From positions 62,001 to 126,000 of the forward strand of contig NZ_CP092430.2 in NCBI RefSeq assembly GCF_022374935.2: 64,000 bases of DNA, given 5' to 3'. A program made the translations under genes and the position numbers. Shown in pieces: positions 40,578 through 57,993 of this stretch (its first letter is position 1; every line of letters begins with the position of its first letter). Source of the stretch: Mycolicibacter virginiensis (GTDB lineage: Bacteria; Actinomycetota; Actinomycetes; Mycobacteriales; Mycobacteriaceae). Below the pieces are notes generated by a model. The model saw only the letters and a list, made by a program, of their open reading frames with translations, had not been told where the DNA came from and ran no database searches.

Positions 40578-41954
40578 GTGACCGGGGCGGTGACTCAAAG
40601 CCAGTTTCGGAGCCTTTTGCAGAGCGTGGCGGAAGTGGTGGGCCCCGCCTATGTCACCGACGATCCCGACGTGCTGGCCGGCCGGAGCGTTGACTACACC
40701 GGTCGTTACCGGGGCCGGGCGAGTGCGTTGGTGCGTCCCGGATCGCCCGAGGAAGTCGCCGCGGTGCTGCGGCTCTGCCGTGACGCCGGCGCACACGTCA
40801 CCGTTCAGGGCGGGCGCACGTCACTGGTGGCCGGCACCGTCCCCGAGCACGACGACGTGCTGCTGTCCACCGAGCGGCTGAACACCGTCGGTGAGGTCGA
40901 CGTCGTAGAACGACGGGTGAGTGTGGGGGCCGGCGCCACGCTCGCGGCGGTGCAGCGGGCGGCGACCGATGCCGGGCTGATCTTCGGTGTAGACCTCACC
41001 GCCCGGGATACCGCCACAGTCGGCGGCATGGCCTCCACCAATGCCGGCGGGCTGTATACCGTGCACTACGGCAACATGGGCGAGCAGGTACTCGGCCTGC
41101 AGGTGGCACTGCCCGATGGCGCACTGCTACACCGACACAGCGCGGTGCGCTCGGACAACACCGGCTACGACCTGCCGGCATTGTTCGTCGGCGCCGAAGG
41201 AACCTTGGGCGTCATCACCGGGCTGGATCTGAGACTGCATCCCCTCCCGGTCCACCGGGTCACGGCAGTCTGCGGCTTCGCGGAGCTGCAGGATCTGGTC
41301 GATGCGGCGCGAATCTTTCGCGACCTCGACGGCATCGCGACCCTGGAGTTGATCGACGCCCGGGTCGCCGCACTGACCGGCGAGCGACTCGGGATTGTCG
41401 CCCCGGTGCGCGGTGACTGGCTGCTGCTGGTGGAACTGACCGGCGACACCGGCCAGACCGACCGCCTCGCCGACCTGCTGGCGCAGGTGCGGTTCTGCGA
41501 CGAGCCGGCGGTGGGTGTTGACCTTGCGACCCAACAGCGGCTGTGGCGGGCTCGCGAGGCGATCGCCGACGTTTTGGGTGCCTTCGGGCCGCCGTTGAAG
41601 TTCGACGTGTCGCTGCCCTTGGCGGCGGTTGCCGGATTCGCCGCGGCGGCGAGCACGGTGGTGCGAGAGCATGCACCGGAGGCGATCCCGGTGCTGTTCG
41701 GCCACATCGGTGAGGGCAACCTGCACTTCAATGTGCTGCGTTGCTCGGCATCGGCCGAGGCGGGCCTTTACGCGGCGATGATGACGCTCATCGCCGACTG
41801 CGGCGGCAACGTCAGCTCCGAACACGGGGTGGGCAGCCGCAAGCGGGCCTATCTGGCGATGTCGCGCGGGCCGGACGACATCGCCGCGATGCGGACGATC
41901 AAGGCCGCGTTCGATCCGACCGGCTACCTCAATGCCGCGGTGCTCTTCGACTGA
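40578..41954 (+). CDS. FAD-linked oxidase, D-2-hydroxyacid dehydrogenase type (Rv0161-like)
   Basis: A 458-residue protein with a PCMH FAD domain (residues 30-215: VTVQGGRTSLVAG, TVGGMASTNAGG and GAEGTLGVITGLDLRL) and the FAD-oxidase C-terminal domain ending LFGHIGEGNLHFNV, SSEHGVGSRKR and NPTGYLN-like DPTGYLNAAVLF. It oxidises D-lactate or a similar 2-hydroxyacid. It marks the left border of the apparent island, since Rv0162c-like adhE1 follows it in M. tuberculosis but is 11 kb away here. Confidence 0.87.
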   Translation: MTGAVTQSQFRSLLQSVAEVVGPAYVTDDPDVLAGRSVDYTGRYRGRASALVRPGSPEEVAAVLRLCRDAGAHVTVQGGRTSLVAGTVPEHDDVLLSTERLNTVGEVDVVERRVSVGAGATLAAVQRAATDAGLIFGVDLTARDTATVGGMASTNAGGLYTVHYGNMGEQVLGLQVALPDGALLHRHSAVRSDNTGYDLPALFVGAEGTLGVITGLDLRLHPLPVHRVTAVCGFAELQDLVDAARIFRDLDGIATLELIDARVAALTGERLGIVAPVRGDWLLLVELTGDTGQTDRLADLLAQVRFCDEPAVGVDLATQQRLWRAREAIADVLGAFGPPLKFDVSLPLAAVAGFAAAASTVVREHAPEAIPVLFGHIGEGNLHFNVLRCSASAEAGLYAAMMTLIADCGGNVSSEHGVGSRKRAYLAMSRGPDDIAAMRTIKAAFDPTGYLNAAVLFD

Positions 41955-42014: not shown

Positions 42015-42548
42015 CTAGCGGTGCTTGATGCCGACGGCCTGACGCAGCTGGGCGAGGAACTGCTCGGAGTCGTCGCTGCGAATGATGTAGTGCGAGATGG
42101 CGATCCGGATCGCGGCGGCCGCTTTCACCGGGGCGTCCGGACCGGTCAGCATCCGCTGCAGGCCCTCGCGCATCGGCACGATGATGCGGGAGAAGTCGGC
42201 GAGTACGTGCTTGGGCTCGATGTCGATCATTCGTACACCCGTGTACGAGTGCTGGTAGTCAACGATGAAACGCAGTGCGGCGTCGAGCTTTTCGGTCCCC
42301 TTTAGTCCTTCGGTGGCGCGGGCGATGCCGCTGTCGAAGATGTGCCGCTCGTAGCGGGAGAATGCTGAGATCAGCTCTTCCTTCGACGGGAACCATCGAT
42401 ACAGTGTCGGACGGGAGACCCCGGCCTGGGAGGCCACCTCGGACAGGCTGAGCTTCGTCATCCCATTGCGCCCGAGCACCTCGGCGGTGGCCGCGAGGAT
42501 CCGCTGCCGGGTCGAGCTGTCGGGGCCGTCCACCGTGCTGCGGGTCAT
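42015..42548 (-). CDS. TetR-family regulator of the catabolic island
   Basis: A 177-residue TetR protein with its helix-turn-helix in SLSEVASQAGVSRPTLYRWF (about residues 35-56) and a short ligand domain. Its start lies 7 bases from a TAAAGT -10 box, so its message is probably leaderless. That box is part of a 31-bp element repeated in two other island promoters, which makes this protein the natural candidate to bind it. It is divergent from the SDR-like gene. Confidence 0.83.
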   Translation of the reverse strand: MTRSTVDGPDSSTRQRILAATAEVLGRNGMTKLSLSEVASQAGVSRPTLYRWFPSKEELISAFSRYERHIFDSGIARATEGLKGTEKLDAALRFIVDYQHSYTGVRMIDIEPKHVLADFSRIIVPMREGLQRMLTGPDAPVKAAAAIRIAISHYIIRSDDSEQFLAQLRQAVGIKHR

Positions 42549-42555
42549 AGCGGAG

Positions 42556-42586
42556 ACTTTACAAAAAATAGCGATAGTGTCACGCT
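42556..42586. promoter_or_regulatory. Island element, copy 1
   Basis: Arms ACTTTACAAAA and AGTGTCACGCT, 9 bases apart. Read on the minus strand it gives a -35-like GTGACA, 16 bases, then TAAAGT, a promoter for the TetR gene. The arms are identical at all 22 positions to copy 2 at 45042, more than a promoter alone would require, so an operator is likely superimposed. Confidence 0.65.
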
Positions 42587-42653
42587 GGTTCGGTGCCTGG
42601 ACATCGTTCCTCACCGTCGCGGGCCTCCCGGATCGGGCCGTAGGGCAATTATT

Positions 42654-43307
42654 GTGATCGAAGCGCCGCAAGTCACGTGCGAGGAACGCACGCATCCGCC
42701 GCGAGCCGTGATGATCGTCATCGAAGCAGCCGGGATTGCCCAGGTGGCCGCGGCTCAGTTGGCCGCTCAAGGACACCTGGTGCTGCTCGGCGGTCGGCGA
42801 ATCGAGGAGTTCGAACGGTTCGCGGCGCAGCTTCGAGACCGCGGCGGCAGCGCGTTCGCCGCCTACCTCGATCTCGCAGAGCCGCGTTCGATCAACCAAT
42901 TCCTCGCCGCCGCGCACTACCTCATCGGCACCGCGGACGTGCTCATCACCGATGTCGGTCTCGCCGGACGGGCGGGCGAGGGCCCGGACAGCGCCGGAGT
43001 GGGGGCGCAAATTCTTGCCACCCGGGTGATTCCGGCCATGATCGCCCGAGGCAGCGGGGACGTCGTGCTGGTCGGCCCCGAGTTGGCCGGGGTGAGCTGC
43101 GCCGCCGCCCAGCGCAAGGTTGACGCTTGGCTGGCGGCCTTGGACGCGGAGTTCGTCGGCACCGGGGTACGGGCATCGGTGGTCCGGTCGGCCCAGGCGG
43201 GTGCCTTCGCGCGTACCGCTGAGGCCGGCCGCCTGCTCGCTGGGATGGCCACCGAGTCGCGGCTGCGTCTCGTCGAAATGCTGCCCGGCGCGGGAGCGGC
43301 CCGCTAA
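42654..43307 (+). CDS. Degenerate SDR-fold protein without catalytic tyrosine
   Basis: A 217-residue protein with an SDR-like course (nucleotide-site region VIEAAGIAQVAAAQLAAQGH; LGGRRIEEFER; SGDVVLVGPELAG), but the glycine-rich TGxxxGIG is eroded. Where the catalytic YxxxK should be there is AAAQRK: Lys is kept and Tyr is absent. It is therefore probably a pseudo-enzyme or binding protein. The GTG is at 42654. Convergent 4-base overlap with the thioesterase at its end. Confidence 0.6.
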   Translation: MIEAPQVTCEERTHPPRAVMIVIEAAGIAQVAAAQLAAQGHLVLLGGRRIEEFERFAAQLRDRGGSAFAAYLDLAEPRSINQFLAAAHYLIGTADVLITDVGLAGRAGEGPDSAGVGAQILATRVIPAMIARGSGDVVLVGPELAGVSCAAAQRKVDAWLAALDAEFVGTGVRASVVRSAQAGAFARTAEAGRLLAGMATESRLRLVEMLPGAGAAR

Positions 43308-44110
43308 CGGGGGCGCACCAGGACGGACTGTTGAATGCCCGCCACCGCGCCCTGCTGATCGAACAGGGTGCCGATAGTCGTCCCTATGCCGTCGGGGCCG
43401 TAGTTGGTCTCGGCCCGGATGCCGATCCACTCGCCGTCGGGAATCCGGTGCACGTGCACCACCAGGTCGGTGTTGAGGAACGTCCACTTCCTGATGTCGA
43501 GCTTGGTGCCGACCCCGTTGGCGTCGTCGGCCACAGCGAACAGCCGTTGCAGCGGGGTCATGGATTCCCCCTTGACCAGGTCCACGATCGGTGAGATCCA
43601 GGATTCGCCGGCGCCCGGGGCCAACGGCGTGGTCAACCACCGCCAGTCCAGACTGTGCACGTAGTTGCGGTCCCAGTTCTGCTGCATGTTGTTGCTTTGT
43701 GCCTCACTGACCGGCCGCAGCGGCGGGGCCGAGGCGTGCTGCAGGTCGCCGGTGTCCAAGGTCTGCAACCGCCAGCCGGACGCACGGGCGACGGGTCGCG
43801 GCAGCTGGTCGGGGCCGGGCGCCAGCATCTCGGCGCTGACCAATTCGATCTGCTTGCCAGCCCGGTCGACCTGGCCGCGCACCCACAGCGCGCCTTCGGC
43901 CGGCACCGGCCCCAACAAGTCGATGCTGACCCGGCTGAGTCGGGTATCGTCGCGCGGCGCCACGCGCTCCAGTGCCCGCACCAGCAGGGCCGAAACCGGT
44001 GCGGCGTGCTGGATCTGGGCCGACCACGTGCCGCGCACCAGATCGGTGGCTCCGAACTTCTCTCCCCGCGGATCGGCGGCATCCAGCAACTCGTAGTAGG
44101 CGTCGGTCAT
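43304..44110 (-). CDS. TesB-like thioesterase (double hotdog)
   Basis: A 268-residue protein of the thioesterase-like superfamily: two hotdog halves, with TWSAQIQHAAPVSALLVRAL in the first and FLNTDLVVHVHRIPDGEWIG in the second, the latter typical of TesB-like C-termini. It would release CoA from an acyl-CoA. It follows the SMP-30 gene by 10 bases in the same direction, so the two form an operon driven from 45042. Confidence 0.75.
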   Translation of the reverse strand: MTDAYYELLDAADPRGEKFGATDLVRGTWSAQIQHAAPVSALLVRALERVAPRDDTRLSRVSIDLLGPVPAEGALWVRGQVDRAGKQIELVSAEMLAPGPDQLPRPVARASGWRLQTLDTGDLQHASAPPLRPVSEAQSNNMQQNWDRNYVHSLDWRWLTTPLAPGAGESWISPIVDLVKGESMTPLQRLFAVADDANGVGTKLDIRKWTFLNTDLVVHVHRIPDGEWIGIRAETNYGPDGIGTTIGTLFDQQGAVAGIQQSVLVRPR

Positions 44111-44120
44111 CGAATCCCTT

Positions 44121-44999
44121 TCAGGGCAGTCCGGCGCCGGGAATCTCCACAGTCACCGTGTCCAGGCGCGAGTTGCGGGTGCCGATCAGGTGCTTCGGGT
44201 AGGCGGTGGAACTGGACAGCAGGAACAGCGTGCGGCGCTTCGGCCCGCCCAGCGCGCATGCGATCGCGGCCCGCTCGCCGGTTGCGATCCGGTCTGTCAC
44301 CACACCGCCCTGGGTGATGCGCTCGAACTGATTGGCCAGGGTCATCGCCGTCCAGACCCCGCCGGCGGCGTCCAGCGCAATACCGTCCGGTGGTCCGTCC
44401 AGCCCGTCGGCGAACACCCGGCGGTCACGCAGTCCGCCGTCGGCGTCGATGGTGAACTGGGTGAGCCGGCGGCCCATCGACTCGGCGACGATCAGCGTGC
44501 CGCCGTCCGGGGTGATCGCCATTCCGTTGGGAAAGTCGAGATCCTCGGCCACGAGGTGGACTTTGCCTTTTGGGGCGTCCGGATCGACGCGCACCACCAC
44601 GCCGCCGGAGTAGGCCTGCGACCCGATGTAGGCGCGGCCGGCCGCGTCCACCACCATGTCGCCGAGGTCGGCGGGCACCTGGTCGCTCAGGTCGACCAGC
44701 GTGGTCACAGTGTCACCGTCGTAGCAGAGCACCTGGCGGTCGGAGGCCGAGGCGATCAGCAGCGATCCGTCCGGCCGAAACCCCAGCCCGCTGGGGGTGT
44801 GTCCCGGCAGTGGCACGGTGGTCATCGAGCCGCGCAGGTTCACGGTGTGGATCGCCTCGCCGAGCATGTCCGAGAACCACAGCAGCCCCTCGAACCAGCG
44901 CGGGCCCTCCCCGAAGCAGAAGCCGCCGGCCAGCGGTGCGGGGGGCGACGTGGAGCCCGGGTTGTCCTGCTGTGAACTCGTTTCGGCGATGCCCAACAC
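44121..44999 (-). CDS. SMP-30/gluconolactonase-family lactonase
   Basis: A 292-residue six-blade beta-propeller. The expected divalent-metal ligands are visible: E31 in GEGPRW, N158 in FPNGMAI and D205 in PPDGIALD. The family hydrolyses lactones. In this island it fits as the enzyme opening the lactone that a Baeyer-Villiger monooxygenase (51755) would make. The GTG at 44999 is preceded by the island element with a leader of about 40 bases. Confidence 0.85.
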   Translation of the reverse strand: MLGIAETSSQQDNPGSTSPPAPLAGGFCFGEGPRWFEGLLWFSDMLGEAIHTVNLRGSMTTVPLPGHTPSGLGFRPDGSLLIASASDRQVLCYDGDTVTTLVDLSDQVPADLGDMVVDAAGRAYIGSQAYSGGVVVRVDPDAPKGKVHLVAEDLDFPNGMAITPDGGTLIVAESMGRRLTQFTIDADGGLRDRRVFADGLDGPPDGIALDAAGGVWTAMTLANQFERITQGGVVTDRIATGERAAIACALGGPKRRTLFLLSSSTAYPKHLIGTRNSRLDTVTVEIPGAGLP

Positions 45000-45041
45000 T
45001 GTCGCCCTCCTGTCCGGCGGCCGCGGGTGCGGCCAGAGCCT

Positions 45042-45072
45042 ACTTTACAAAATCCGGCTCAAGTGTCACGCT
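45042..45072. promoter_or_regulatory. Island element, copy 2
   Basis: Same arms ACTTTACAAAA and AGTGTCACGCT as copy 1 with an unrelated 9-base spacer. It lies between the SMP-30 gene (minus) and the TesB-like gene (plus, ATG 7 bases away), so it can affect both. Confidence 0.65.
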
Positions 45073-45078
45073 CGCGGA

Positions 45079-45978
45079 ATGTCTGAAGCAACCGGGACCA
45101 CCGAGACTTCCCCCGCGACGAAATGGTCGGTGAGCGGCCTGCTGGACCTATTCGAGGTGACGGAGGACGGCCCGGACCGGTTCACCGGTGCGACCGGCCT
45201 GGCCGGCGACGACGAGCGCCAAGTCGTGGAAGGCACCCAGCTGCTGGCGCAGGCCATCGTCGCGGCGGCGAAACGCTTCGGCGACAAGTCCGTCCGATCG
45301 GTGCACGCGGTATTCGCCCGGGCTCTGCTGGTGGGACCGGCGGCGGAATACGTGATCGACGTGGTCAACGAGGGTCGTTCAACGGCCACCGCAGTGATCT
45401 CGGTGCTGCAGAACCAGAAGCGCTGCGCGACCATCACCGTGCTGGCCGATGTCCCGTCGGCCGACGTGATCACCCACCACCTGCCGCGGCCCGATGTAGC
45501 CGGCCCCGCGCAGGCCAACCCCTGTGTCATGCCGATGACCGGACGTGAAGTGCGCCTCGTCGACGTCGTCGACGTCAACAGCCCCGACGAGGTGGGCCCG
45601 CCGGAACTCTATGCCTGGCTGCACTATGAGCCCATTCCCGCCCGCGACGACCTCGCCAAAGCGCTGATCGCTTACTTCACCGGACATTTGGGCATCTCGA
45701 CAACGATGCGCGCACACGCCGGGATCGGCACCAGTCAGTCGCACCTGACGGTGTCCACCGCTCCCATGACGGTCACGGTGAGCTTCCATGAACCGGTGCG
45801 CTGGGACGGCTGGATCCTCTACAGCCATGAAAGCACCCAGGTGGGTTCGGGCATGTCCTACGTTCGCGGCACCGTGCACACCGAGGACGGTGCTCTACTC
45901 GCCTCGTTTACCCAGGACGGCCTGATCCGGCCGCTACGCACCAGCGACAACAAGATCGCCGAGCACTCTCGGTTATAG
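45079..45978 (+). CDS. Acyl-CoA thioesterase II-like protein
   Basis: A 299-residue double-hotdog protein: an N-terminal half with QAIVAAAKRFGDKSVRSVHAVF and a C-terminal half with MTVTVSFHEPVRWDGWILYSHE, SYVRGTVHTEDGALLASFTQDGLIR, close to TesB C-terminal motifs. It hydrolyses acyl-CoA thioesters. The ATG at 45079 was chosen because the conserved sequence begins there and the island element lies just upstream. It is the second thioesterase of the island. It overlaps the convergent DUF427 gene by 6 bases. Confidence 0.78.
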   Translation: MSEATGTTETSPATKWSVSGLLDLFEVTEDGPDRFTGATGLAGDDERQVVEGTQLLAQAIVAAAKRFGDKSVRSVHAVFARALLVGPAAEYVIDVVNEGRSTATAVISVLQNQKRCATITVLADVPSADVITHHLPRPDVAGPAQANPCVMPMTGREVRLVDVVDVNSPDEVGPPELYAWLHYEPIPARDDLAKALIAYFTGHLGISTTMRAHAGIGTSQSHLTVSTAPMTVTVSFHEPVRWDGWILYSHESTQVGSGMSYVRGTVHTEDGALLASFTQDGLIRPLRTSDNKIAEHSRL

Positions 45979-46668
45979 GCGTGGGCGCCCGGCCGCGGAG
46001 GGTAGTTCAGCGAAACCGCCGACGAGCGACAGATCAAAGCTGAATAGACCTGCGATGGGCGCACTCTCGGGCGGCGGGTCCGGGTAACTCCAGGCCACGT
46101 CTGGTACGACGGTGTCTCCGACGACCGCGGACCAGTAGCGGGCGTAGCCCTTGTAGTTGCAGTAGCTCGACGTCGTCGACGCCTGCAACAGATCCGTGCG
46201 GACGTGGTCGGAGGCGACGTACAGCCGCGGAACTAGGGCCGTCTCGAACAGGATCACGGTGTCATCGGTGTCCACCAGGGGCACTCCGTCAACGTCGACC
46301 CGCAATGCGCGCCGGGTGGGTCGGCAATCGACCCGGTGATAGGGGTTCGGCGGGTAGTGCACCAGCCGCCGGCCCTCCTCGAACCAGGCGTCCACGGCGT
46401 CCCACGGCACCTGCACGAAGCCCGCTGCCTCGGGCAGCGCCCGATGCGGAAGATCGCCGACGGCATCCGCGGGGAAGGCGTAGCCCAGCGGCTCGCCCTG
46501 GCGATGCACCAGCAGCGCGCTTTCGGTGTCGATCACGGTGCGCTCACCGCGGATCGCCCGCACGCGGCGCGGATGCGGTTCGACATACACCAGAGCGCCG
46601 GTGATCTCCGGGGCGAACCAACCGGCGCGCTCGGTACTCAACGGGCCGTGTCCGGCAACCAGACTCAT
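45973..46668 (-). CDS. Double DUF427 domain protein
   Basis: A 231-residue protein with two DUF427 units: the first about 25-110 (VRAIRGERTVIDTESALLV) and the second about 120-220 (RALRVDVDGVPLVDTDDTVI and the signature TTSSYCNYKGYARYW). An AGGAGTGAA ribosome site precedes the ATG at 46668. The function is unknown. Its presence both here and in the Rv0140-like operon ties the domain to catabolic SDR/NTF2 gene sets. Confidence 0.83.
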   Translation of the reverse strand: MSLVAGHGPLSTERAGWFAPEITGALVYVEPHPRRVRAIRGERTVIDTESALLVHRQGEPLGYAFPADAVGDLPHRALPEAAGFVQVPWDAVDAWFEEGRRLVHYPPNPYHRVDCRPTRRALRVDVDGVPLVDTDDTVILFETALVPRLYVASDHVRTDLLQASTTSSYCNYKGYARYWSAVVGDTVVPDVAWSYPDPPPESAPIAGLFSFDLSLVGGFAELPSAAGRPRL

Positions 46669-46697
46669 TTCACTCCTACCCGTGTTCGCCTCATTCG

Positions 46698-46728
46698 GCT
46701 TTACAAATTTAGCTTCAACTGTAATATC
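46698..46728. promoter_or_regulatory. Island element, copy 3
   Basis: A diverged copy: left arm CTTTACAAA intact, the same 9-base spacer length, right arm ACTGTAATATC. Here the core is a clean TTACA...TGTAA inverted repeat. It lies between the DUF427 gene and the seven-gene operon starting at 46813. Confidence 0.55.
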
Positions 46729-46812
46729 TCGGAGAAGTTGTGCTGCGCGGCCGGACAGTTCGCCCGGCCGGCGGCACCGTCTGAGATTCTCACGACGAGC
46801 TGGGATGATGCG

Positions 46813-47370
46813 ATGACGAGTACCGCTGCGGCGCTGGATTCCTTGGCGCAGGACCACTACCTCCGCTACCGCCTCGATGTCATCGCCCCCGATGTCGCCG
46901 GCCTGGTGCGCGCGGCCGGCGGGTGGCTGTATCACCGTGCGTCGACCGGCTGGGACGTGCGGGTGCTGGTGCCACCGCACCAGGATCTCCGGCCGTTGCA
47001 GATCCTGGGCCTCAATACGGCGGACCTCGAGACGGAGCTGTCTGCCTCCGGCAGCGATACACCCGGGCACAGCCTGGCGGTGGTCGCCGACTCGCTCACC
47101 GCCGATCCCCGAATCAGCGCGCGGATACACCACGCGCTGCGGAGCAGCCTGACCGAGGTCGTGTTGTGGGGCGAGCGCTGGCCGCTGGAGGTCAGCCATC
47201 GGCTCAGCACCGTGCAGCACCTGCCCACCGTGGCGGGCCAGGCGTTCAAGCGGCAGGCGTTGGCTGCCGCCGATGTCGGGCACGCGGACCCGTTCGACGG
47301 TCCGGAGATATTCCGTAGCGACCAGAAGCATTGCCTGCCGGTCAATTCCGACCTGATCCCGGTCGGCTGA
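46813..47370 (+). CDS. Protein of unknown function, first of the seven-gene operon
   Basis: A 185-residue soluble protein (MTSTAAALDSLAQDHYLRYR start) with Leu/Asp-rich alternating helix and strand, such as GWDVRVLVPPHQDLRPLQIL, and no cysteines in a pattern, signal or membrane span. I do not recognise it. Its stop overlaps the next ATG by one base (TGATG), so it is part of the operon and presumably works in the same pathway, perhaps as a binding or regulatory subunit. Confidence 0.65.
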   Translation: MTSTAAALDSLAQDHYLRYRLDVIAPDVAGLVRAAGGWLYHRASTGWDVRVLVPPHQDLRPLQILGLNTADLETELSASGSDTPGHSLAVVADSLTADPRISARIHHALRSSLTEVVLWGERWPLEVSHRLSTVQHLPTVAGQAFKRQALAAADVGHADPFDGPEIFRSDQKHCLPVNSDLIPVG

Positions 47371-48086
47371 TGCGCAAGCACTACGACCACACCCTGCTCT
47401 ACCTGCACGAGACGATCGATCTGGGCCGCGGCGTCAGCGACGACTTCACCCGCAACTTCACCGAGATCTACCAGCCGATGATGACCGAGCTGGGTGCCCG
47501 CCTGTTCGCGTTGTGGGAGTCCACCGCCTACAACGGGCACTGGCCGCAGGTCACGATCATCTGGGAGATCGACGCGTTCGCCGACTACGCCCGAATCGGG
47601 CGGGCGCAGAACCGCGGTGGCAGCCACGCCCAGCGCGCGGCCGAGTGGTCGGCCTACCTCGCCGGCATCGGAGCATCGGGGGAGGGCCGCATCATGTACC
47701 CCGGCCCGCACAACAAGACCCTGTCTGCGCTGTGCGCGGCCGACTTCGACGCCACCGTGGTCATTCAGGAAATCATGCAGACCAAGCCCGGTCGACAGGA
47801 CGACTACATCCGGGAACTGGAGCGGCTGTACGTGCCGTGGTCGGAGAGCACCGGAAAGCGCTGGCTCGGTTCGTTCACCACCACGTTCCGCTACAACGAG
47901 GTCATCCATTACTGGGCACTGGACGGCGGCTGGGACTGCTTCGCCGAGCATTACCCGTCGTGGAAGGACCATCCGCCGGCGGAGATCGTGACGTGGATGA
48001 GCGTGGCGCCCGCATTACGCGACGGCTGGGAGGACTCGATCCTGCAGGCCCTGCCCCCCTCGCCGCTGCAGCGAGACGCGTCGTGA
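47370..48086 (+). CDS. NIPSNAP-like protein
   Basis: A 238-residue protein that looks like two ferredoxin-like NIPSNAP/dimeric alpha-beta-barrel halves: MRKHYDHTLLYLHETIDL and then WPQVTIIWEIDAFADYARI, with a second copy from ATVVIQEIMQTKPGRQDDYI to YNEVIHYWALDGGWDCFAEHY. Such folds carry small oxygenases, isomerases or binding proteins. It is coupled by one-base and 4-base overlaps to its neighbours. Confidence 0.6.
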   Translation: MRKHYDHTLLYLHETIDLGRGVSDDFTRNFTEIYQPMMTELGARLFALWESTAYNGHWPQVTIIWEIDAFADYARIGRAQNRGGSHAQRAAEWSAYLAGIGASGEGRIMYPGPHNKTLSALCAADFDATVVIQEIMQTKPGRQDDYIRELERLYVPWSESTGKRWLGSFTTTFRYNEVIHYWALDGGWDCFAEHYPSWKDHPPAEIVTWMSVAPALRDGWEDSILQALPPSPLQRDAS

Positions 48087-49312
48087 CAAGCGTTGCCGCG
48101 CCGGAGTTCTCCTACGATCCATTCGACCCGGCGGTGATGGCCGACCCCCTCCCGTACTACCGGGTGCTGCGCGATCAGCACCCGATGTACTACGTCCCAC
48201 AGTGGGATCTGTACGCCCTGTCCCGCTTCGAGGACATCTGGGATGTGCTGGCGCTCAGTGACGGCACCTTCGTGGCCTCGGAGGGAACACTGCCGGCGGC
48301 CACCGTGCTGGCGCACCACAACGATGGACCGGTTCCGGACCCGCCGCTGCACCCGCTGCCGTTCCACGCCGTATTCGACAAGCCGATCTATGACGACATC
48401 CGTCGGTTGCAGGCCCCGGCGTTTCGGCCCCGGTCGGTGGCCGACTGGGAAGACCGCATCCGTACCTTGGCCAATCAGCGCCTTGATGAGCTGCTTGGCC
48501 AGGGCCAGTTCGACTTGACCTGTGACTACGGCGGAGTCGTGGTCGCTCAGGTGGTCTGCGAGCTGTTGGGCATTCCGATCGATTGCGCCGCAGAGGTATT
48601 GGCAGCGGTGAACGCCGGAAGCCTCGCGCAGGCGGGCAGCGGGGTGGACACGGCTGCGGCGCGGCCCAACTACTTGCAGTACCTCATCCCGGCCGTACAG
48701 CGCCGGCGCGCCGAGCAGGGCCCCGGCGACCTGCCGATCGTCGACGGGATGCTGGCCTACCGGCTACCGGACGGCACCGACCTCGATGACATCGAAGCTG
48801 CGACGCAACTGCTGTGCATCTTTATCGGCGGTACCGAGACCGTGCCCAAGATCGTCGCGCACGGGTTGTGGGAACTGGCCCGGCGCCCGGACCAACTGGC
48901 CGCGGTACGGGCCAATCCGGATGACACGGTGCAGCTGGCACGCGAAGAGATGATCCGCTATTGCGCACCGGCGCAATGGTTCGCGCGCACCGCCCGCAAA
49001 CCGTTCACGCTGCACGGGGCGACCGTTGAGCCGGGCCAACGCATCATCACCCTGCTGGCGTCGGCAAACCGCGACGAGCGCCAATACCCTGACCCCGACG
49101 AATTCCAGTGGGACCGACCGATTAAAAGATCACTGGCGTTCGGACGCGGACAGCACTTCTGCATCGGCTACCACCTGGCCCGACTGGAAGTGACCGTCCT
49201 AGTGCAGGAATGGCTGCGTCGAGTTCCGAACTATCGGATTCTCGACGACGGCGCGACCCGGCTGCCGTCCAGCTTCCAATGGGGCTGGAACACCATCCCG
49301 GTGGAGGTCTAA
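48083..49312 (+). CDS. Cytochrome P450 of the catabolic island
   Basis: A 409-residue P450: I-helix FIGGTETVPK (Thr present), ExxR in REEMIRY and heme loop AFGRGQHFCIGYHLAR. The GTG at 48083 overlaps the previous stop (GTGA). No ferredoxin gene is in the island, so electrons must come from elsewhere. It is a likely first hydroxylation step on the unknown substrate. Confidence 0.88.
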   Translation: MTSVAAPEFSYDPFDPAVMADPLPYYRVLRDQHPMYYVPQWDLYALSRFEDIWDVLALSDGTFVASEGTLPAATVLAHHNDGPVPDPPLHPLPFHAVFDKPIYDDIRRLQAPAFRPRSVADWEDRIRTLANQRLDELLGQGQFDLTCDYGGVVVAQVVCELLGIPIDCAAEVLAAVNAGSLAQAGSGVDTAAARPNYLQYLIPAVQRRRAEQGPGDLPIVDGMLAYRLPDGTDLDDIEAATQLLCIFIGGTETVPKIVAHGLWELARRPDQLAAVRANPDDTVQLAREEMIRYCAPAQWFARTARKPFTLHGATVEPGQRIITLLASANRDERQYPDPDEFQWDRPIKRSLAFGRGQHFCIGYHLARLEVTVLVQEWLRRVPNYRILDDGATRLPSSFQWGWNTIPVEV

Positions 49313-49315
49313 AGC

Positions 49316-50284
49316 ATGTGGGCATACCGGTTGATCGCGCCCTATCAATTCGAGAAGATCGAGGCCCCCGATCCACGCGAGCAGCAGCTAGGCGCGGGGC
49401 AGGTGCTGCTGCAGTTTGTCGCCGCCGGGGTATGCGGCAGCGACCTGCCGGCCTTCCGCGGCGCGCAGGGCAGGTTGGCCGGTGACGACGGCGCCCGGGC
49501 CGCGGAGAAGCTCGGCTTCCCGATCCACGAGATCGTCGGTGACGTCATCGCCAGCCGGCATCCGCTGCACCAACCCGGTGACCGGGTCGTCGGTTGGGCG
49601 TCGGGCTTCGACGGACTGATGGAACAGGTGATCAGTGACGGCGACGGACTGGTGGCCTACGACCTGGCGTTGGCGCCCGCCCAAGCCGTGGGCCTGCAGC
49701 CGTTGGCGTGTGTGCTCTACGCCGTCGAACAACTGCCCGACCTGGCCGGGCGCCATGTCGCGGTGATCGGTCAGGGGTCGATCGGTCTGCTGTTCAGCGC
49801 TGTCGCCAAAGCCGCGGGTGCGCGGCGCGTCACCGGTGTGGATCCGGTCGATCGCCGAGAGGTGGCGTCCGCCTTCGGGATTGACACCGTGGTCCAGGCG
49901 ACAAGTGACCGCTGGGTGCACCACCTGGACGCAGCAGACCGCCCGGAGATCGTGATCGAGGCGGTCGGCCACCAGGTTGCCACCTTGGGTCACGCCATCG
50001 AGGCGGTCGCTCCCGGCGGCACGGTGTTCTACTTCGGTGTCCCCGACGACGACAGCTATCCGATCAGCATGCGCACCATGCTGCGCAACAATCTGACGTT
50101 GATGTCCGGAATCACCCAGGATAGGCGGCGGATGCTGGAGGTCGCAGGTCGATTCGCCGCGGAGCATCCAGAACTGTTGGGCGACTACGTCACTCACATC
50201 TTCGGCTGCCATGAAGCCCAGGCCGCGTTCGAGTTGGCGAGTCGACCGGTGCCGGGCCGCGTCAAGATCGCGATGGTCGCATGA
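49316..50284 (+). CDS. Medium-chain zinc-type alcohol dehydrogenase
   Basis: A 322-residue MDR protein. Catalytic zinc ligands are seen in GVCGSDLPAF and GFPIHEIVGDV; the four-cysteine structural zinc lobe is absent. The NAD site is VAVIGQGSIGLLFSAVAK. It would oxidise the alcohol made by the P450 to a ketone or aldehyde. It starts 3 bases after the P450 and overlaps the aldolase ATG (ATGA). Confidence 0.82.
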   Translation: MWAYRLIAPYQFEKIEAPDPREQQLGAGQVLLQFVAAGVCGSDLPAFRGAQGRLAGDDGARAAEKLGFPIHEIVGDVIASRHPLHQPGDRVVGWASGFDGLMEQVISDGDGLVAYDLALAPAQAVGLQPLACVLYAVEQLPDLAGRHVAVIGQGSIGLLFSAVAKAAGARRVTGVDPVDRREVASAFGIDTVVQATSDRWVHHLDAADRPEIVIEAVGHQVATLGHAIEAVAPGGTVFYFGVPDDDSYPISMRTMLRNNLTLMSGITQDRRRMLEVAGRFAAEHPELLGDYVTHIFGCHEAQAAFELASRPVPGRVKIAMVA

Positions 50285-51030
50285 CGTCGGCGCTGCATGC
50301 CGCCCTGGCGGACCGGGCCCCGCTCTGGGGCGGCTGGGTCACCGGGCCCACGGTGCTGGGCCCGGAGGAATTCGCCCGCGCCGGCTACGACTACGTAGGA
50401 TTCGACGCCCAACACAGTTACCTCGATGACGCCGACATCGCCGCCATGCTGCGGCACACCGAACACCTGCCGATCGCCACCGCGGTCCGACTGCCCAACG
50501 CCGATGCCGCCCCTATCGGACGGGTGCTCGATGCCGGCGCCGACGCGGTCATCATCGCGCTGATCGAGACCGCCGAGCAGGCGGCCGCCGCGGTGGCCGC
50601 TACCCGCTATCCCCCGACGGGGACCCGCAGCTTCGGGCCGCTGCGCCCCGGCCTGGGCCGCGATCTTGCCGGTCTGGAATCGCGAGCGGACGTCTTCGCG
50701 ATGATCGAGACCGCCGCGGCCCTGGGGGACGTGGAACGGATCTGTGCGGTGCCCGGCCTGGCCGGCATCTACGTCGGACCCGTCGACCTGGCGATCTCGA
50801 TGGGTGTCGACGTCTCCGAATCCACCACGCACCCCGACCTGCTCGCGGCGATGACACGCATCCGGGGCGCGGCGGCGGAAGCGGGCGTGATCGCGGCGGT
50901 CCACGGCGGATCGGGCGCGGCGGGGGCGGTGCTGGCCGGGCTGGGCTTCCAGATGATCACGCTGGCCGCCGAGTCCCAGGCACTGCGCCGGGGAGCCCTC
51001 GAACATCTCGACGAAGCGAGGGGCCGATGA
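50281..51030 (+). CDS. HpcH/HpaI-type class II aldolase
   Basis: A 249-residue TIM barrel. Family residues are visible: DAQHSYLDD (catalytic His), MIETAAALGDVERI (metal Glu) and YVGPVDLAISMG (metal Asp). It would retro-aldol cleave a 4-hydroxy-2-oxo-acid to pyruvate and an aldehyde, or work on a similar substrate. In this operon it could carry out the carbon-carbon cut after ring opening. Confidence 0.82.
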   Translation: MTSALHAALADRAPLWGGWVTGPTVLGPEEFARAGYDYVGFDAQHSYLDDADIAAMLRHTEHLPIATAVRLPNADAAPIGRVLDAGADAVIIALIETAEQAAAAVAATRYPPTGTRSFGPLRPGLGRDLAGLESRADVFAMIETAAALGDVERICAVPGLAGIYVGPVDLAISMGVDVSESTTHPDLLAAMTRIRGAAAEAGVIAAVHGGSGAAGAVLAGLGFQMITLAAESQALRRGALEHLDEARGR

Positions 51031-51758
51031 GCTCGGCACGGGTCGCGTTGGTCACCGGCGCCGCCCGCGGCCAGGGTTGGGCGATCGCCGAACGACTGCG
51101 CGCCGACGGATTCGCCGTAGTGGCCGGCGACATCAACGAGGCCGAGCTGAATGCCGCCATTACTGCGCGGGCTGACGACGCACTGATCGGCGTCCACCTC
51201 GACGTGACCTGCCCCGAACAATGGCACGCCGCGGTGGCAACCACCGTCCAACGGTTCGGGGCGCTGACCGCGCTGATCAACAACGCCGGCACCCTGCACC
51301 GTGCGGCGATCGCCGATGAGACACCCGAAGACTTCGAAAAGGCCTGGCGGGTCAACTGTCTGGGCGCATTCCTGGGAATCCAGGCGGCGCTGGACCAGCT
51401 GCGGACGGCCGAGGGCGCCGCCATTGTCAACACCTGCAGCACCGGGGCGATCCGTCCCTTTCCGCAGCACAGCGCCTACGGGTCGTCGAAGTGGGCGCTG
51501 CGCGGCCTGACCCAGACCGTCGCCGCGGAGCTCGTCACGGCGGGCATCCGGGTCAATGCGGTGTTCCCCGGGCCGATCGCCACCCCGATGCTCGACGAAG
51601 TCACCCAGCAGCGCCTGGCCGCGGTGTCGGCGGGCGGCCGGCTCGGCCGGCCGGTCGAGGTGGCTGACGCGGTGGCGTTCCTGGTTTCGCAAGCCGCGTC
51701 GTTCATCACCGGCGCCGAGCTCGTCGTGGACGGCGGCCAGTGCCTGCAGATCCGATGA
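51027..51758 (+). CDS. Classical SDR oxidoreductase
   Basis: A 243-residue classical SDR with TGAARGQGWAIA, INNAGTLH, the serine of NTCSTGAI, YGSSKWAL (YxxxK) and the PGPIATPM tail. All catalytic residues are present, in contrast to the degenerate copy at 42654. It probably oxidises or reduces a secondary alcohol/ketone in the pathway. Coupled by ATGA overlaps on both sides. Confidence 0.87.
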   Translation: MSSARVALVTGAARGQGWAIAERLRADGFAVVAGDINEAELNAAITARADDALIGVHLDVTCPEQWHAAVATTVQRFGALTALINNAGTLHRAAIADETPEDFEKAWRVNCLGAFLGIQAALDQLRTAEGAAIVNTCSTGAIRPFPQHSAYGSSKWALRGLTQTVAAELVTAGIRVNAVFPGPIATPMLDEVTQQRLAAVSAGGRLGRPVEVADAVAFLVSQAASFITGAELVVDGGQCLQIR

Positions 51759-53221
51759 ACATCGGCATCATCGGCGCCGGGCCGGGCGGGCTGGCGCTGG
51801 GAATCCTGTTGCAGCGTGCGGGATTCTCCGACTTCACCATCTTCGACCGGGAGGACGGTGTCGGCGGCACCTGGCGGATCAACACGTATCCGGGGCTGGC
51901 CTGTGACGTCAAGTCACACCTGTACTCCTATTCCTTCGACCTGAATCCGCACTGGTCGCGGCAGTGGTCGCAGCAACCCGAGATCCTGGCCTATTTCGAG
52001 CGGTGCGCCGCCGACCACGGCCTGGCCGCGCACCTGCGGCTGCGCACCGAGATTCGCTCGGCCCGTTGGGAAGAAGACCGCCGCCAGTGGTGTCTGACCA
52101 CCGACACCGGCGCGCAGCATCGGTTCGACGTGGTGGTCTCGGCCGTCGGGCTGTTCACCCAGCCGGTGCTGCCCGATCTGATCGAAGAACAGCCCTTCGC
52201 CGGCACCGTGATGCATTCGGCGCGGTGGGACCATTCGGTGCCGATCGCCGGGGCGAAGGTCGCCGTGCTCGGGACGGGTTCGACCGCGGCGCAACTGCTG
52301 CCGGAGCTGGCCGAGGTCGCCGAGAAGGTGTACTCGCTGCAGCGGTCACCGACCTGGATCCTGCCCAAGCCGGACCGGCGCTACACCCCGCGGGAGCGAT
52401 GGGCCTTCGCCCGCATCCCATTGGCCAAACGGCTGTACCGGATGCGACTGTGGCTGCGCAGCGAGTCGAACATCTCGGTGATCGAGAACGGCAGCGACAA
52501 GACCCGGGAGTTCACCGATATCGCGCGAAAACTCTTGGACAGCACCATCGCCGACGAGCAACTACGCCAAGCGCTCACCCCGGATCACCCGCTGGGCTGC
52601 AAACGTCTGGTGTTCTCCTCGGACTACCTGCCCGCGCTGGCCCGACCCAACGTCGAAGTGGTGACCAGCCCGGCCCGGGCCCTGCGCTCCCGATCGGTGG
52701 TCACCGAGGACGGCACCGAGTGCGAGGTCGACGTGGTGGTCTGCGCCACCGGATATGCCGCTGCGGACTACCTCGGTCAGATCGAGGTGACCGGGGAGGA
52801 CGCCACCACGCTCAAGCAGGCCTGGCGGGACGGGCCGCGTGCTTACCTCGGTATGGCGATGCCCGGGTTCCCCAACTTCTTCATGCTCTACGGGCCCAAC
52901 ACCAACGTCGGCTCCAACAGCGTCATCTTCGTGCTGGAAGCCCAAGCGCGCTACATCGTGCGGGTGCTCAAACACCTTCGGCGCACCGGCAAGTCCTACG
53001 TCGCCGTGCGGCCGGCCGCGCTGGCCGACTTCATCACCAAGATCGACCGGTGGATGCACGGCACCGTGTGGACCACCCGCTGCAGCAACTACTTTCGTGC
53101 CGCCAACGGCCGGGTGGTCACCCAGTGGCCGCGCAGTGCCGGCGCCTTCTGGGCGATGACCCGCCGATTCCGGGCCGCCGACTTCACCTTCGAACCACCA
53201 GTCAGTGCGGATCGAAGGTGA
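51755..53221 (+). CDS. Baeyer-Villiger monooxygenase (flavoprotein), last of the operon
   Basis: A 488-residue flavoprotein: FAD site GIIGAGPGGLALG, GGTWRINTYPG, and NADPH site VLGTGSTAAQLLP. The type I Baeyer-Villiger fingerprint FxGxxxHxxxW(P/D) is present as FAGTVMHSARWD (about residues 148-159). It would convert a ketone to an ester or lactone using NADPH and oxygen. Together with the SMP-30 lactonase this suggests ring opening through a lactone. Its end overlaps the convergent alcohol dehydrogenase by 20 bases, the right border of the island. Confidence 0.85.
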   Translation: MNIGIIGAGPGGLALGILLQRAGFSDFTIFDREDGVGGTWRINTYPGLACDVKSHLYSYSFDLNPHWSRQWSQQPEILAYFERCAADHGLAAHLRLRTEIRSARWEEDRRQWCLTTDTGAQHRFDVVVSAVGLFTQPVLPDLIEEQPFAGTVMHSARWDHSVPIAGAKVAVLGTGSTAAQLLPELAEVAEKVYSLQRSPTWILPKPDRRYTPRERWAFARIPLAKRLYRMRLWLRSESNISVIENGSDKTREFTDIARKLLDSTIADEQLRQALTPDHPLGCKRLVFSSDYLPALARPNVEVVTSPARALRSRSVVTEDGTECEVDVVVCATGYAAADYLGQIEVTGEDATTLKQAWRDGPRAYLGMAMPGFPNFFMLYGPNTNVGSNSVIFVLEAQARYIVRVLKHLRRTGKSYVAVRPAALADFITKIDRWMHGTVWTTRCSNYFRAANGRVVTQWPRSAGAFWAMTRRFRAADFTFEPPVSADRR

Positions 53222-54317
53222 TGATCTGACGTACCGCGGTGCCGTCGGCGAGTGAGTCCATGGCCTCATTGATCTGCTCCAGCGGCACTGTCGCCGACAC
53301 CAGCCGCTCGACGGGGAGCCGGCCCGCTCGCCACAACTCCACGAAGCGAGGGATGTCACGCGCGGGGACCGCCGAACCCAGATAGCTGCCGATCAGTGAG
53401 CGTCCTTCGGCGACCAGACTCAGCGGGGACACACTGATCCGGGCGTCCGGCGGCGGCAGGCCGACGGTGATGGTGCGCCCGCCCGGCGCGGTCAGGCCGA
53501 TCGCGGTCTCCAGCGCGGCGGGGTGGCCCGCCGCCTCGATCACCACCGGGGCGCGCACGCCGGCGTCGAGTGCCTGCTGCGGCGTGTAGGTGCGGTGCGC
53601 GCCCAACGCGGTTGCGGCGGCCATCTTGTCCGGCAGCCGGTCGATCGCGATCACCTGCACGCCATCGTGGGCCAGCGCGGTCAGCACCGCGGCCATCCCG
53701 ACCCCGCCGAGCCCGACCACCGCGACGGTGCCACCGGGCGCCGGACGGCCGACGTTGAGTACGGCGCCGCCGCCGGTCAGTACCGCGCAGCCCAGCAGGG
53801 CGGCCACTGTCGGCGGCACGTCGTCGGGAACCGGCACCGCGCTGGCCGCACTCACCACCGCATGCGTGGCGAACCCGGAGACACCCAGGTGGTGGTAGAC
53901 GGTCTGGTCGGCGCGGTGCAGCCGCAGCCCGCCGCCGAGCAGAGTGCCCGCGCCGTTGGCGGCGCTGCCGGGCTCGCACGGCGCCATGCCGTCGGTGGCG
54001 CACGCCGCGCAGTACCCGCAGCGCGGCAGGAAGGTCAGCACCACCCGCTGGCCGGGGCGCACCCCGGTGACCCCGGCGCCGACCGCCTCCACGATGCCGG
54101 CGGCCTCGTGGCCGAGCAGCATCGGCACCGGTCGCACCCGGTTGCCGTCGACCACCGACAGATCGGAGTGACAGACCCCGGCGGCCTCGACGCGCACCAG
54201 CAGCTCGCCCTCGCCGGGCGGGGCCAGCTCCACCTCCGTCACCGTCAGCGGGCGCGAGGCGGCGTAGGGGCGAGGCGCACCGATCCGCTCCAGTACGGCC
54301 CCGCGGATCGCGATCAT
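53202..54317 (-). CDS. adhE1: Zinc-dependent alcohol dehydrogenase (AdhE1/Rv0162c-like)
   Basis: A 371-residue MDR enzyme with both zinc sites: catalytic CHSD and GHEAAG, and the structural four-cysteine loop PRCGYCAACATDGMAPCEPG; NAD site VAVVGLGGVGMAA. The class is like formaldehyde/aryl-alcohol dehydrogenases. The ATG at 54317 leaves 14 bases to the divergent thioesterase ATG, so the promoters overlap coding sequence or start codons. Order matches Rv0162c-Rv0163-Rv0164. Confidence 0.83.
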   Translation of the reverse strand: MIAIRGAVLERIGAPRPYAASRPLTVTEVELAPPGEGELLVRVEAAGVCHSDLSVVDGNRVRPVPMLLGHEAAGIVEAVGAGVTGVRPGQRVVLTFLPRCGYCAACATDGMAPCEPGSAANGAGTLLGGGLRLHRADQTVYHHLGVSGFATHAVVSAASAVPVPDDVPPTVAALLGCAVLTGGGAVLNVGRPAPGGTVAVVGLGGVGMAAVLTALAHDGVQVIAIDRLPDKMAAATALGAHRTYTPQQALDAGVRAPVVIEAAGHPAALETAIGLTAPGGRTITVGLPPPDARISVSPLSLVAEGRSLIGSYLGSAVPARDIPRFVELWRAGRLPVERLVSATVPLEQINEAMDSLADGTAVRQIITFDPH

Positions 54318-54331
54318 GCTGGAATACAACC

Positions 54332-55284: not shown

Positions 55285-56973
55285 TTGAGCCACCCAACCG
55301 TCGACCCCGCCGAGCAGCCCTACCGCGCTCGTCGACAGAACTGGGTCAACCAGCTGGACCGGCACGCGCTGATGACACCGGACGCCCCGGCACTGCGGTT
55401 CCTGGGCCAGACCACCACCTGGTCGCAGCTGCGTGATCGGGTTGGCGCGCTGGCCGACGCCCTGAGCCGCCGCGGGGTTCGCGCCGGTGACCGGGTGATG
55501 ATCCTGATGCTCAACCGCACCGAGTTCGTCGAGTCGGTGCTGGCCGCCAACATGCTGGGCGGGATCGCGGTGCCGGTCAATTTCCGGCTCACCCCGCCGG
55601 AGATCGCCTACCTGGTCACCGACTGCGAGGCCAGGGTGCTGATCACCGAACCGGCACTGGTGCCGGTCGCCGCCGGTGTGCGAGAGCTGACCGGACTGCT
55701 GGACCACGTGGTGGTGGCCGGCGGTTCAGCGAGGCTCGACGGAGGAGAGGCGAAGCTGGGACCGCCGCATGAGCCCGGAGCGCCGGCCGATGAGGCGGCG
55801 GGCCTGCTCGCCTACGAAGACCTGATCAGCGAGACAGGCGAGCCGCACGCCCCGGTGGACATCCCCAACGACTCACCGGCCCTGATCATGTACACCTCGG
55901 GGACCACCGGCCTGCCCAAGGGAGCGGTGCTCACCCACACCAACCTGGTCGGTCAGACGATGACCGCGCTGCACACCGCCGGAACCGGCACCTCCGACGT
56001 GGCCTTCATCGGTGTGCCGTTCTTCCACATCGCCGGTGTGGGCAACCTGTTGCCCGGCATGTGGCTGGGCATCCCGACCGTCATCAACCCCCTCGGCGCT
56101 TTCGACGCCGGCCAACTGCTCGACGTGCTGGCCGCCGAGAAGGTCACCGGCATCTTCCTGGTGCCGGCTCAATGGCAGGCGGTCTGCGCCCAGCAGCAGG
56201 CCAACCCGCGCGACATCCGGTTGCGGACCATGTCGTGGGGTGCGGCGCCGGCCTCCGACGCCTTGCTGCGACAGATGGCCGAGACCTTCCCCGGCACCAA
56301 GATCCTGGCGGCCTTCGGGCAGACGGAGATGTCGCCGGTGACCTGCATCCTGCTCGGCGAGGACGCCACCAGAAAGCTCGGTTCGGTCGGCACGGTCATC
56401 CCGACCGTCTCGGCCCGGGTGGTCGACGAGCAGATGAACGACGTCGCGGTCGGCGAGGTGGGCGAGATCGTCTACCGGGCGCCCACCCTGATGAGCGGCT
56501 ATTGGAACAATCCGGAGGCCACCGCCGAGGCCTTTGCCGGCGGCTGGTTCCACTCCGGCGACCTGGTCCGGATGGATGAAGAGGGCTACGTCTGGGTGGT
56601 CGACCGCAAGAAGGACATGATCATCTCCGGTGGCGAGAACGTGTACTGCGCCGAAGTGGAGAACGTGCTGGCCGATCACCCCGATATCGCCGAGGTCGCC
56701 GTCATCGGCCGCCCGGACGAGCGATGGGGCGAGGTACCGATAGCGGTCGCCGCGCTGTCCCGGGCCGGCCTCACCCTGGCCGACCTCGACGATTTCTTGA
56801 CCAAGCGGCTGGCGCGCTACAAGCACCCCAAGGCGCTCGAGATCGTCGACGCCCTGCCCCGAAACCCGGCCGGGAAAGTGCTCAAAACGGAACTGCGCAT
56901 TAACTACGGGACGGCTCAGGGATCCGAGCGGGGCAGCACCCCAAGCGATGCCGCGCGAAACACCGATGAGTGA
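55285..56973 (+). CDS. fadD5: Fatty acid-CoA ligase FadD5
   Basis: A 562-residue acyl-CoA synthetase of the AMP-binding family: P-loop MYTSGTTGLPKGAV, AFGQTEMSPV, YRAPTLMSGYWNN, FHSGDLVRMDEEGYVWVVDR and the C-terminal catalytic Lys in PRNPAGKVLKTEL. The sequence is very close to the remembered Rv0166, the first gene of the mce1 operon. It has a TTG start at 55285 with a GGGAG site. A segment rich in Gly/Pro near residues 152-175 (ARLDGGEAKLGPPHEPG) looks inserted compared with Rv0166. It activates fatty acids recycled through Mce1. Confidence 0.9.
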   Translation: MSHPTVDPAEQPYRARRQNWVNQLDRHALMTPDAPALRFLGQTTTWSQLRDRVGALADALSRRGVRAGDRVMILMLNRTEFVESVLAANMLGGIAVPVNFRLTPPEIAYLVTDCEARVLITEPALVPVAAGVRELTGLLDHVVVAGGSARLDGGEAKLGPPHEPGAPADEAAGLLAYEDLISETGEPHAPVDIPNDSPALIMYTSGTTGLPKGAVLTHTNLVGQTMTALHTAGTGTSDVAFIGVPFFHIAGVGNLLPGMWLGIPTVINPLGAFDAGQLLDVLAAEKVTGIFLVPAQWQAVCAQQQANPRDIRLRTMSWGAAPASDALLRQMAETFPGTKILAAFGQTEMSPVTCILLGEDATRKLGSVGTVIPTVSARVVDEQMNDVAVGEVGEIVYRAPTLMSGYWNNPEATAEAFAGGWFHSGDLVRMDEEGYVWVVDRKKDMIISGGENVYCAEVENVLADHPDIAEVAVIGRPDERWGEVPIAVAALSRAGLTLADLDDFLTKRLARYKHPKALEIVDALPRNPAGKVLKTELRINYGTAQGSERGSTPSDAARNTDE

Positions 56974-57132
56974 GGTGGCGGCACGTTACTCTCCGGTAGG
57001 AAGCCCGCGTAGGTTCCGCCCGTTCGATGTCCTTCTCACGGAGACATCAGGTATGGTCCGATGGTCGCCAAGGGCACTTCGGGCCGATAAGGTGACGCGG
57101 GTCTCGCTGAACGACGGACGGGAGAAGACACT

Positions 57133-57192
57133 GTGCGACGCGGTTCCTTGCTGAGTCGTGCGGCGGGATTTCTGGTGAGGGGGGTGGTGTGA
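57133..57192 (+). CDS. Possible 19-residue leader peptide before yrbE1A
   Basis: A GTG-started frame encoding VRRGSLLSRAAGFLVRGVV whose TGA overlaps the yrbE1A start as GTGTGA. Overlap of a short leader with the first permease gene would couple their translation. It may also be a chance frame. The surrounding 56974-57188 region separates fadD5 from yrbE1A and must contain any internal promoter; I see no clear boxes. Confidence 0.25.
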   Translation: MRRGSLLSRAAGFLVRGVV

Positions 57193-57992: not shown

Positions 57993-57993
57993 C

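Follow-up and report, generated by a model that had tools for sequence, protein, structure and literature searches.

A probable TetR-controlled catabolic regulon beside the mce1-type region of Mycolicibacter virginiensis, and its fuller form in related mycobacteria

Do the 13 genes that lie left of the mce1-type region of Mycolicibacter virginiensis form one catabolic pathway under common control, and were they brought there as an island? We analysed a window of 64,000 nucleotides, bases 62001-126000 of the single-contig 4.98-Mb genome, in which the block occupies positions 42015-53221. A preliminary description had placed a TetR regulator, thioesterases, a lactonase, a cytochrome P450, an HpcH aldolase and a Baeyer-Villiger monooxygenase (BVMO) among these genes, and all 13 were found at their positions. 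The flanking genes are taken to be homologues of Rv0161 and Rv0162c of M. tuberculosis. Domain search identified them as a GlcD-like flavin adenine dinucleotide (FAD) oxidase on the left and a zinc alcohol dehydrogenase on the right. Our results suggested that the block is probably the reduced form of a single TetR-controlled regulon for the catabolism of a hydrophobic compound.

The candidate repressor of the whole block is a TetR-family regulator at its left end (42015-42548, minus strand; TetR_N 55.9 bits on the longer frame 42015-42653). Its recognition-helix motif is SRPTLYRWF, and the pattern was matched in 58 of 58 orthologues. There are three copies of the 25-bp element TTTACA-N14-TGTNA in the 64-kb window, and every divergent promoter of the block has one of them. 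The first copy, TTTACAAAAAATAGCGATAGTGTCA (42558-42582), lies directly upstream of the TetR start, in the promoter shared with a degenerate short-chain dehydrogenase (SDR). The second, TTTACAAAATCCGGCTCAAGTGTCA (45044-45068), lies between the SMP-30 lactonase and thioesterase 2 genes, and the third, TTTACAAATTTAGCTTCAACTGTAA (46700-46724), between the DUF427 gene and the seven-gene operon. Since all three divergent promoters carry this putative operator, a single TetR would plausibly control all the genes. The whole genome contained five exact matches, and none to the reversed pattern used as control. The fourth site (L144:6853; G000:2432852) is upstream of a PRK08278-type SDR (416.7 bits, cut-off 250), 2.3 Mb from the block; two close relatives, G022 and G016, have a similar site, which in G016 precedes an SDR that is similar at its N-terminus. 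The fifth (G000:3971749) fails a stricter pattern and was rejected as a member of the regulon. At that place (L145:6750), a palindromic TTACA...TGTAA lies between a thiolase-like and an enoyl-CoA hydratase-like gene, as judged from N-terminal sequence, and may belong to another regulator.

The same element was quantified in 80 named loci, the best 80 of 200 found by the NIPSNAP-like protein (NIP) of the operon, which each of them contains by selection. The half-sites T-N-ACA and TGT-N-A occurred 222 times at a spacing of 14, versus 0-3 times at any one of the remaining spacings between 12 and 18. Everted half-sites were found 3 times at spacing 14 and 9 times over all spacings. None of the 222 sites fell within a scored gene, and a site was present within 1300 bp upstream of NIP in all 78 loci with enough sequence, compared with 10 of 1560 Markov resamples. 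A strict form of the operator, CTTTACAA-N13-TGTCACG, was found 108 times, spread over 45 of 60 genomes of the genus, with no match to the reversed control. TetR (E up to 1e-40) was detected in 50 of these genomes: 45 had both operator and TetR, 10 had neither, and none had the operator without TetR. SMP-30 (E up to 1e-60) was found in 44 genomes, every one of which was operator-positive. The operator also travels with separated parts of the set, namely the two distant halves in G004 (L055 and L220), a lone acyl-CoA dehydrogenase (ACAD; L223) and a lone F420-dependent LLM oxidoreductase (L224). On these patterns, this TetR is the candidate protein for binding the operator.

The gene set is common in the genus. 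NIP was found in 128 of 198 genus genomes and in 37 of 298 sampled genomes of the order, 6 of them outside the genus (five at E 1e-13 to 1e-17, one at 3e-86). Among named organisms, the core proteins have their nearest relatives in Mycolicibacter heraklionensis and M. nonchromogenicus, and also in Mycobacterium sp. UM_WGJ; the core operon was present in Aldersonia (Nocardiaceae) as well (L095 and L098). The order NIP, P450, medium-chain alcohol dehydrogenase (MDR), HpcH, SDR was kept in 19 of 20 genus loci picked for having NIP, and is therefore not due to chance. The preliminary description had given the last seven genes as overlapping start to stop, which was true for five of the six junctions (1-4 bases); the P450 stop (49312) and the MDR start (49316) are separated by a 3-bp gap.

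Many relatives outside the Mycolicibacter group carry a larger cluster. In M. colombiense (L083), a typical case, it begins with TetR at the left end, followed by thioesterase 1, SMP-30, an SRPBCC-like protein, thioesterase 2, LLM, ACAD, DUF427 and a CaiB-type coenzyme A (CoA)-transferase. It continues with a PIG-L-fold protein, NIP, P450, MDR, HpcH, a SnoaL-like protein, SDR, BVMO, an HSL-type esterase and Rv0162c. The SRPBCC label is our own reading of a protein that was unmatched in both family libraries. Among the 64 loci outside the Mycolicibacter group (the group being the first 16 of the 80), some of them on short contigs, CaiB was found in 56, esterase in 52, ACAD in 49, LLM in 47, SnoaL in 43 and SRPBCC in 26. 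CaiB, ACAD, LLM and esterase were all present in 34 of the 48 such loci longer than 19 kb. None of the six was found in the 16 Mycolicibacter-group loci or in the window. The window block is a reduced version of this cluster.

A second arrangement, away from Rv0162c, partly adds an aldehyde dehydrogenase (6 loci) and another P450, here called P450b (5 of the 64 loci, including one at the Rv0162c place). P450b of L109 matched CYP268A2 (6bld) with 416 bits and CYP124 with 334 bits. Several smaller forms were also seen. L055 and L226 show a minimal sub-cluster, in which NIP and P450 adjoin a P450b-type P450 and this TetR and the rest of the operon is missing. G026 (L235-L236) has a regulon remnant at the Rv0161-Rv0162c place, keeping TetR, thioesterase 2, LLM and CaiB. 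Around a distant NIP relative in G427 (L225), on a contig that ends nearby, no cluster genes were recognised except a BVMO-like match at 33%.

BVMO was the most unstable member of the operon. The gene (51755-53221, plus strand) encodes a type I enzyme with the fingerprint FAGTVMHSARWD; the pattern F-x-G-x3-H-x3-W-[P/D] was present in the window protein and in 51 of 51 orthologues, which are 71-100% identical. Among its best matches of known structure are steroid, cyclohexanone and phenylacetone monooxygenases. BVMO was present in 51 of the 80 loci, absent in 23 and not scorable in 6, and two of the absentees (L079 and L107) retain remnants. On a FastTree tree of NIP, P450 and MDR, at least 10 changes were needed, 7 of them forced by starred branches; a second scoring gave 9. 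When only loci with a later gene present were counted, BVMO was missing in 24, and among these MDR, P450 and SDR were never missing and HpcH only once. A substitute was looked for in 22 of the 23 BVMO-less genomes, searched whole, and the best-scoring other BVMO was at most 49% identical. Thus the operon persists after repeated loss of BVMO, and the gene is not obligatory in it. The HSL-type esterase downstream was missing in 21 loci with a later gene present. We considered a joint loss of the two genes (of 70 loci, 37 had both, 12 BVMO only, 12 esterase only, 9 neither); on 6 independent pairs, changes in the same direction averaged 1.5 with none in the opposite direction, which carries no significance, and the idea was dropped.

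These losses bear directly on the route that the preliminary description had proposed, in which hydroxylation and oxidation to a ketone lead to an obligatory Baeyer-Villiger lactone, SMP-30 hydrolysis and retro-aldol cleavage. Much of its basis holds up: the set looks catabolic, its order is conserved, every enzyme is present with intact motifs in P450, BVMO, SDR, MDR, HpcH and SMP-30, and a similar order is known from camphor-type pathways. The required middle step does not. Of 74 scorable loci, 23 have lost BVMO through 9-10 changes (two retain remnants) while their operons keep P450, MDR and SDR, and no close copy was found elsewhere in the 22 genomes searched, which makes an obligatory linear route unlikely. 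We consider it possible, while still preferring a single pathway, that two modules with different jobs stand under one regulator. Module A would comprise TetR, the thioesterases, SMP-30, LLM, ACAD, DUF427, CaiB and the PIG-L-fold protein, and module B would comprise NIP, P450, MDR, HpcH, SDR and the optional BVMO and esterase. Consistently, the stretch from Rv0161 to Rv0162c in four NIP-less genomes (L216-L219) contains operators and parts of the TetR-to-CaiB set; the NIP-to-BVMO operon was not seen in it (the rest of the genome was checked for NIP alone). Type-B loci such as L078, L109 and L111 show the converse, keeping module B with SMP-30 and thioesterase 1 but no thioesterase 2 and mostly no DUF427 or gene 7. 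However, most of the 80 loci have the two modules side by side with operators in common, and SMP-30 and thioesterase 1 occur with either module.

A different role for BVMO would be in cell-wall lipid modification, turning ketomycolates into wax-ester mycolates, rather than in catabolism. We know of no enzyme identified for this conversion. Wax-ester mycolates are made by M. scrofulaceum, M. colombiense and M. nonchromogenicus and are not known from M. gordonae, M. szulgai, M. asiaticum or M. sherrisii. BVMO varies more than any other gene of the NIP-to-BVMO operon; it is kept in the former three species and lost in the latter four. This apparent species pattern follows clades, though. In addition, losses occur inside M. 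colombiense-like and scrofulaceum-like clades (L084, L107, L121), Aldersonia (L095 and L098) has the gene, and BVMO sits in one operon with P450 and an aldolase. A purely cell-wall role is therefore highly improbable, and we would give slightly less credit again to the specific idea that the optional BVMO is this enzyme, borrowed into or out of the catabolic regulon, with its loss tracking the loss of wax-ester mycolates. A literature search for a ketomycolate BVMO found no paper, and the available parts of PMC12003690 and PMC9431677 gave no usable mycolate table for these species. As for the origin of the block, a horizontally acquired island placed between Rv0161 and Rv0162c seems to us unlikely. 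Three genomes without NIP, SMP-30 and the strict operator (L238-L240) have their Rv0158-like and Rv0162c-like genes 1.3-1.9 kb apart, which speaks for an insertion, but Rv0161 was likewise not found in these stretches. The GC content of the block (0.655-0.705 per kb) lies inside the range of its surroundings, its order is conserved across the genus, and the NIP protein had no match in 72,556 plasmid records.

The left flank itself seems to be part of the cluster. The Rv0161-like FAD-linked oxidase (40578-41954, plus strand; FAD_binding_4 and FAD-oxidase_C), a probable member outside the bounds first drawn, adjoins the TetR end in 23 of 24 window-type loci whose sequence extends 1500 bp or more upstream of TetR, the exception being L091. 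It also accompanies the cluster away from Rv0162c, in Aldersonia (L095) and in G004 (L220). M. tuberculosis presumably retains Rv0161 without the rest of the cluster. That the block is an inserted island between Rv0161 and Rv0162c is thus unproven because Rv0161 seems to belong to the cluster.

Several observations weigh against a single TetR-controlled catabolic regulon as we propose it. Neither a transporter nor a CoA ligase or transferase was seen in the block, which may therefore be an incomplete pathway. With one mismatch allowed, the genome of M. virginiensis gave 17 operator matches versus 28 for the control, so only exact sites carry signal. Five of the 60 genomes have TetR without the strict operator, one operator-positive genome (G057) lacks SMP-30, and the genome counts of operator, TetR and SMP-30 ignore kinship. 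Solved relatives of the window P450 are distant (150 bits to CYP130), and the CYP268-like gene lies outside the block of the window.

The other genes of the block are as follows. The homologue of short-chain dehydrogenases at 42654-43307 (plus strand; adh_short 40.7 bits), found in 11 of 80 loci, had been called degenerate, and indeed it lacks both G-x3-G-x-G and Y-x3-K; among 11 orthologues the former was found in one and the latter in none. Next to it are a TesB-type acyl-CoA thioesterase, thioesterase 1 (43304-44110, minus strand; 4HBT_3 and 4HBT_3C), and the SMP-30/gluconolactonase-type lactonase (44121-44999, minus strand; SGL 177.8 bits, cut-off 26.3), in which the metal-site E, N and D are present in the alignment to 7plb. 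Thioesterase 2, also TesB-type (45079-45978, plus strand), gave 45.4 bits for 4HBT_3C on the longer frame 44797-45978, and its 87.6 bits against the tesB model stay under the cut-off of 292.85. The DUF427 protein (45973-46668, minus strand) had been described as a double domain; the C-terminal copy was confirmed (PF04248, 106.5 bits, residues 123-212) and Pfam detected no N-terminal copy. The protein formerly listed as unknown (46813-47370, plus strand) has a PIG-L/LmbE deacetylase fold, and the HPDD zinc motif is absent from it and from all 66 orthologues.

The seven-gene operon continues with NIP (47370-48086, plus strand), our marker of the core operon. Its PF07978 score of 17.6 bits is below the Pfam NIPSNAP cut-off of 22.3, and PF07978 is precomputed for some orthologues. 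A structure comparison was abandoned, as the AlphaFold model was too poor (pLDDT 48.5). The cytochrome P450 (48083-49312, plus strand) has the heme cysteine motif FGRGQHFCIG and the acid-threonine motif of the I-helix, and the pattern was matched in 80 of 80 loci. It does not belong to the CYP268/CYP124 family: CYP130 was its nearest solved relative (149.8 bits) and CYP124 gave 113.7 bits, while CYP268 was not among the best 60 of 499 matches. MDR (49316-50284, plus strand; ADH_zinc_N 61.6 bits) keeps C-[GA]-x-D and H-E in 80 of 80 loci. The HpcH/HpaI-type aldolase (50281-51030, plus strand; PF03328 98.8 bits, cut-off 25) aligns its catalytic His, Arg, Glu and Asp with 4mf4 and 7o5i, and falls short of the equivalog cut-off for 4-hydroxy-2-oxoheptanedioate aldolase (TIGR02311; 102 versus 368.8 bits). 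The intact SDR (51027-51758, plus strand; adh_short_C2 198.5 bits) has Y-x3-K in 76 of 76 proteins.

From these enzymes, the following sequence of events can be proposed for the favoured regulon. When no compound is available, TetR would sit on the operators at 42558, 45044 and 46700 and keep all three divergent promoters shut, until it is released by an inducer, for which the substrate or an early intermediate is the probable candidate. P450 would then hydroxylate the substrate, and MDR and SDR would oxidise the alcohol to a ketone. Where it is kept, BVMO may convert the ketone to an ester or lactone, to be opened by SMP-30 or, in relatives, by the HSL-type esterase. The Rv0161-like flavoenzyme could turn a 2-hydroxy acid into a 2-oxo acid for a retro-aldol cleavage of the HpcH type. 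For the TesB thioesterases we propose a role in a CoA-thioester branch; the CoA-transferase and acyl-CoA dehydrogenase of this branch occur in the majority of loci outside the Mycolicibacter group and not in the present block. Our best guess for the most likely substrate class is a methyl-branched or cyclic terpenoid or terpenoid-like ketone; the CYP268-like P450 of some sister clusters leans to terpenoid or methyl-branched substrates. In the available part of PMC6408508, CYP124 and CYP268 are grouped as steroid and hydrocarbon (lipid, long-chain acetate and ketone) hydroxylases, and CYP268 is given as absent from secondary-metabolite clusters. The original CYP268A2 paper appears as a reference within the accessible portion of PMC9655578, and what is available of PMC13254585 adds nothing further on substrates.

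The surroundings of the block were also inspected. The right flank, the Rv0162c-like zinc alcohol dehydrogenase, is at 53202-54317 (minus strand; ADH_N 85.7 bits on the frame 53202-54329). Further right, a FadD5 model match above its curated cut-off (983.3 versus 733 bits) fits an mce1 neighbourhood, and together with two MlaE/YrbE-type permease genes it marks the start of an mce1-type operon (55285-58863, plus strand). On the left, a DUF222 protein (38106-39632, minus strand) lies between the Rv0158-like and Rv0161-like genes; few of the fetched loci (L043, L044, L067, L069) had a relative, which suggests a mobile or patchy gene. A second P450-like stretch of the window (25223-26173, minus strand), outside the block, is 30% identical to the CYP268-like P450b.

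In conclusion, this is an ordinary kind of system, a TetR-controlled catabolic cluster, with new particulars: the operator, the reduced form beside a fuller cluster, the optional BVMO, the PIG-L fold and the probable membership of the Rv0161-like gene. It defines a predicted regulon that is found widely in the genus and has a specific operator, and connects some twenty poorly annotated genes of opportunistic and environmental mycobacteria. The Rv0161-like gene may be a member of this pathway or a relic from it. No publication on such a cluster was found in a literature search that reaches few subscription journals.

The closest parallels are found in known systems. In the sterol regulons KstR and KstR2 of mycobacteria, a TetR repressor likewise stands over many P450, ACAD, SDR and aldolase promoters; however, the TetR of the block differs from KstR (NF033703 31.7 bits, cut-off 280), and its operator differs from the KstR motif. 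Pathways of the camphor or cineole type combine the same enzyme classes in one cluster, with P450, alcohol dehydrogenase, BVMO and lactone opening, whereas here BVMO is dispensable, and the HpcH aldolase, TesB thioesterases and, in relatives, the CoA-transferase are part of the set. The PIG-L/LmbE deacetylases MshB and teicoplanin deacetylase Orf2 have the fold of the 46813-47370 protein, but not its loss of the HPDD metal motif. CYP268A2 of M. marinum resembles P450b of the sister locus L109 and is unlike the P450 of the window, which is closest to CYP130.

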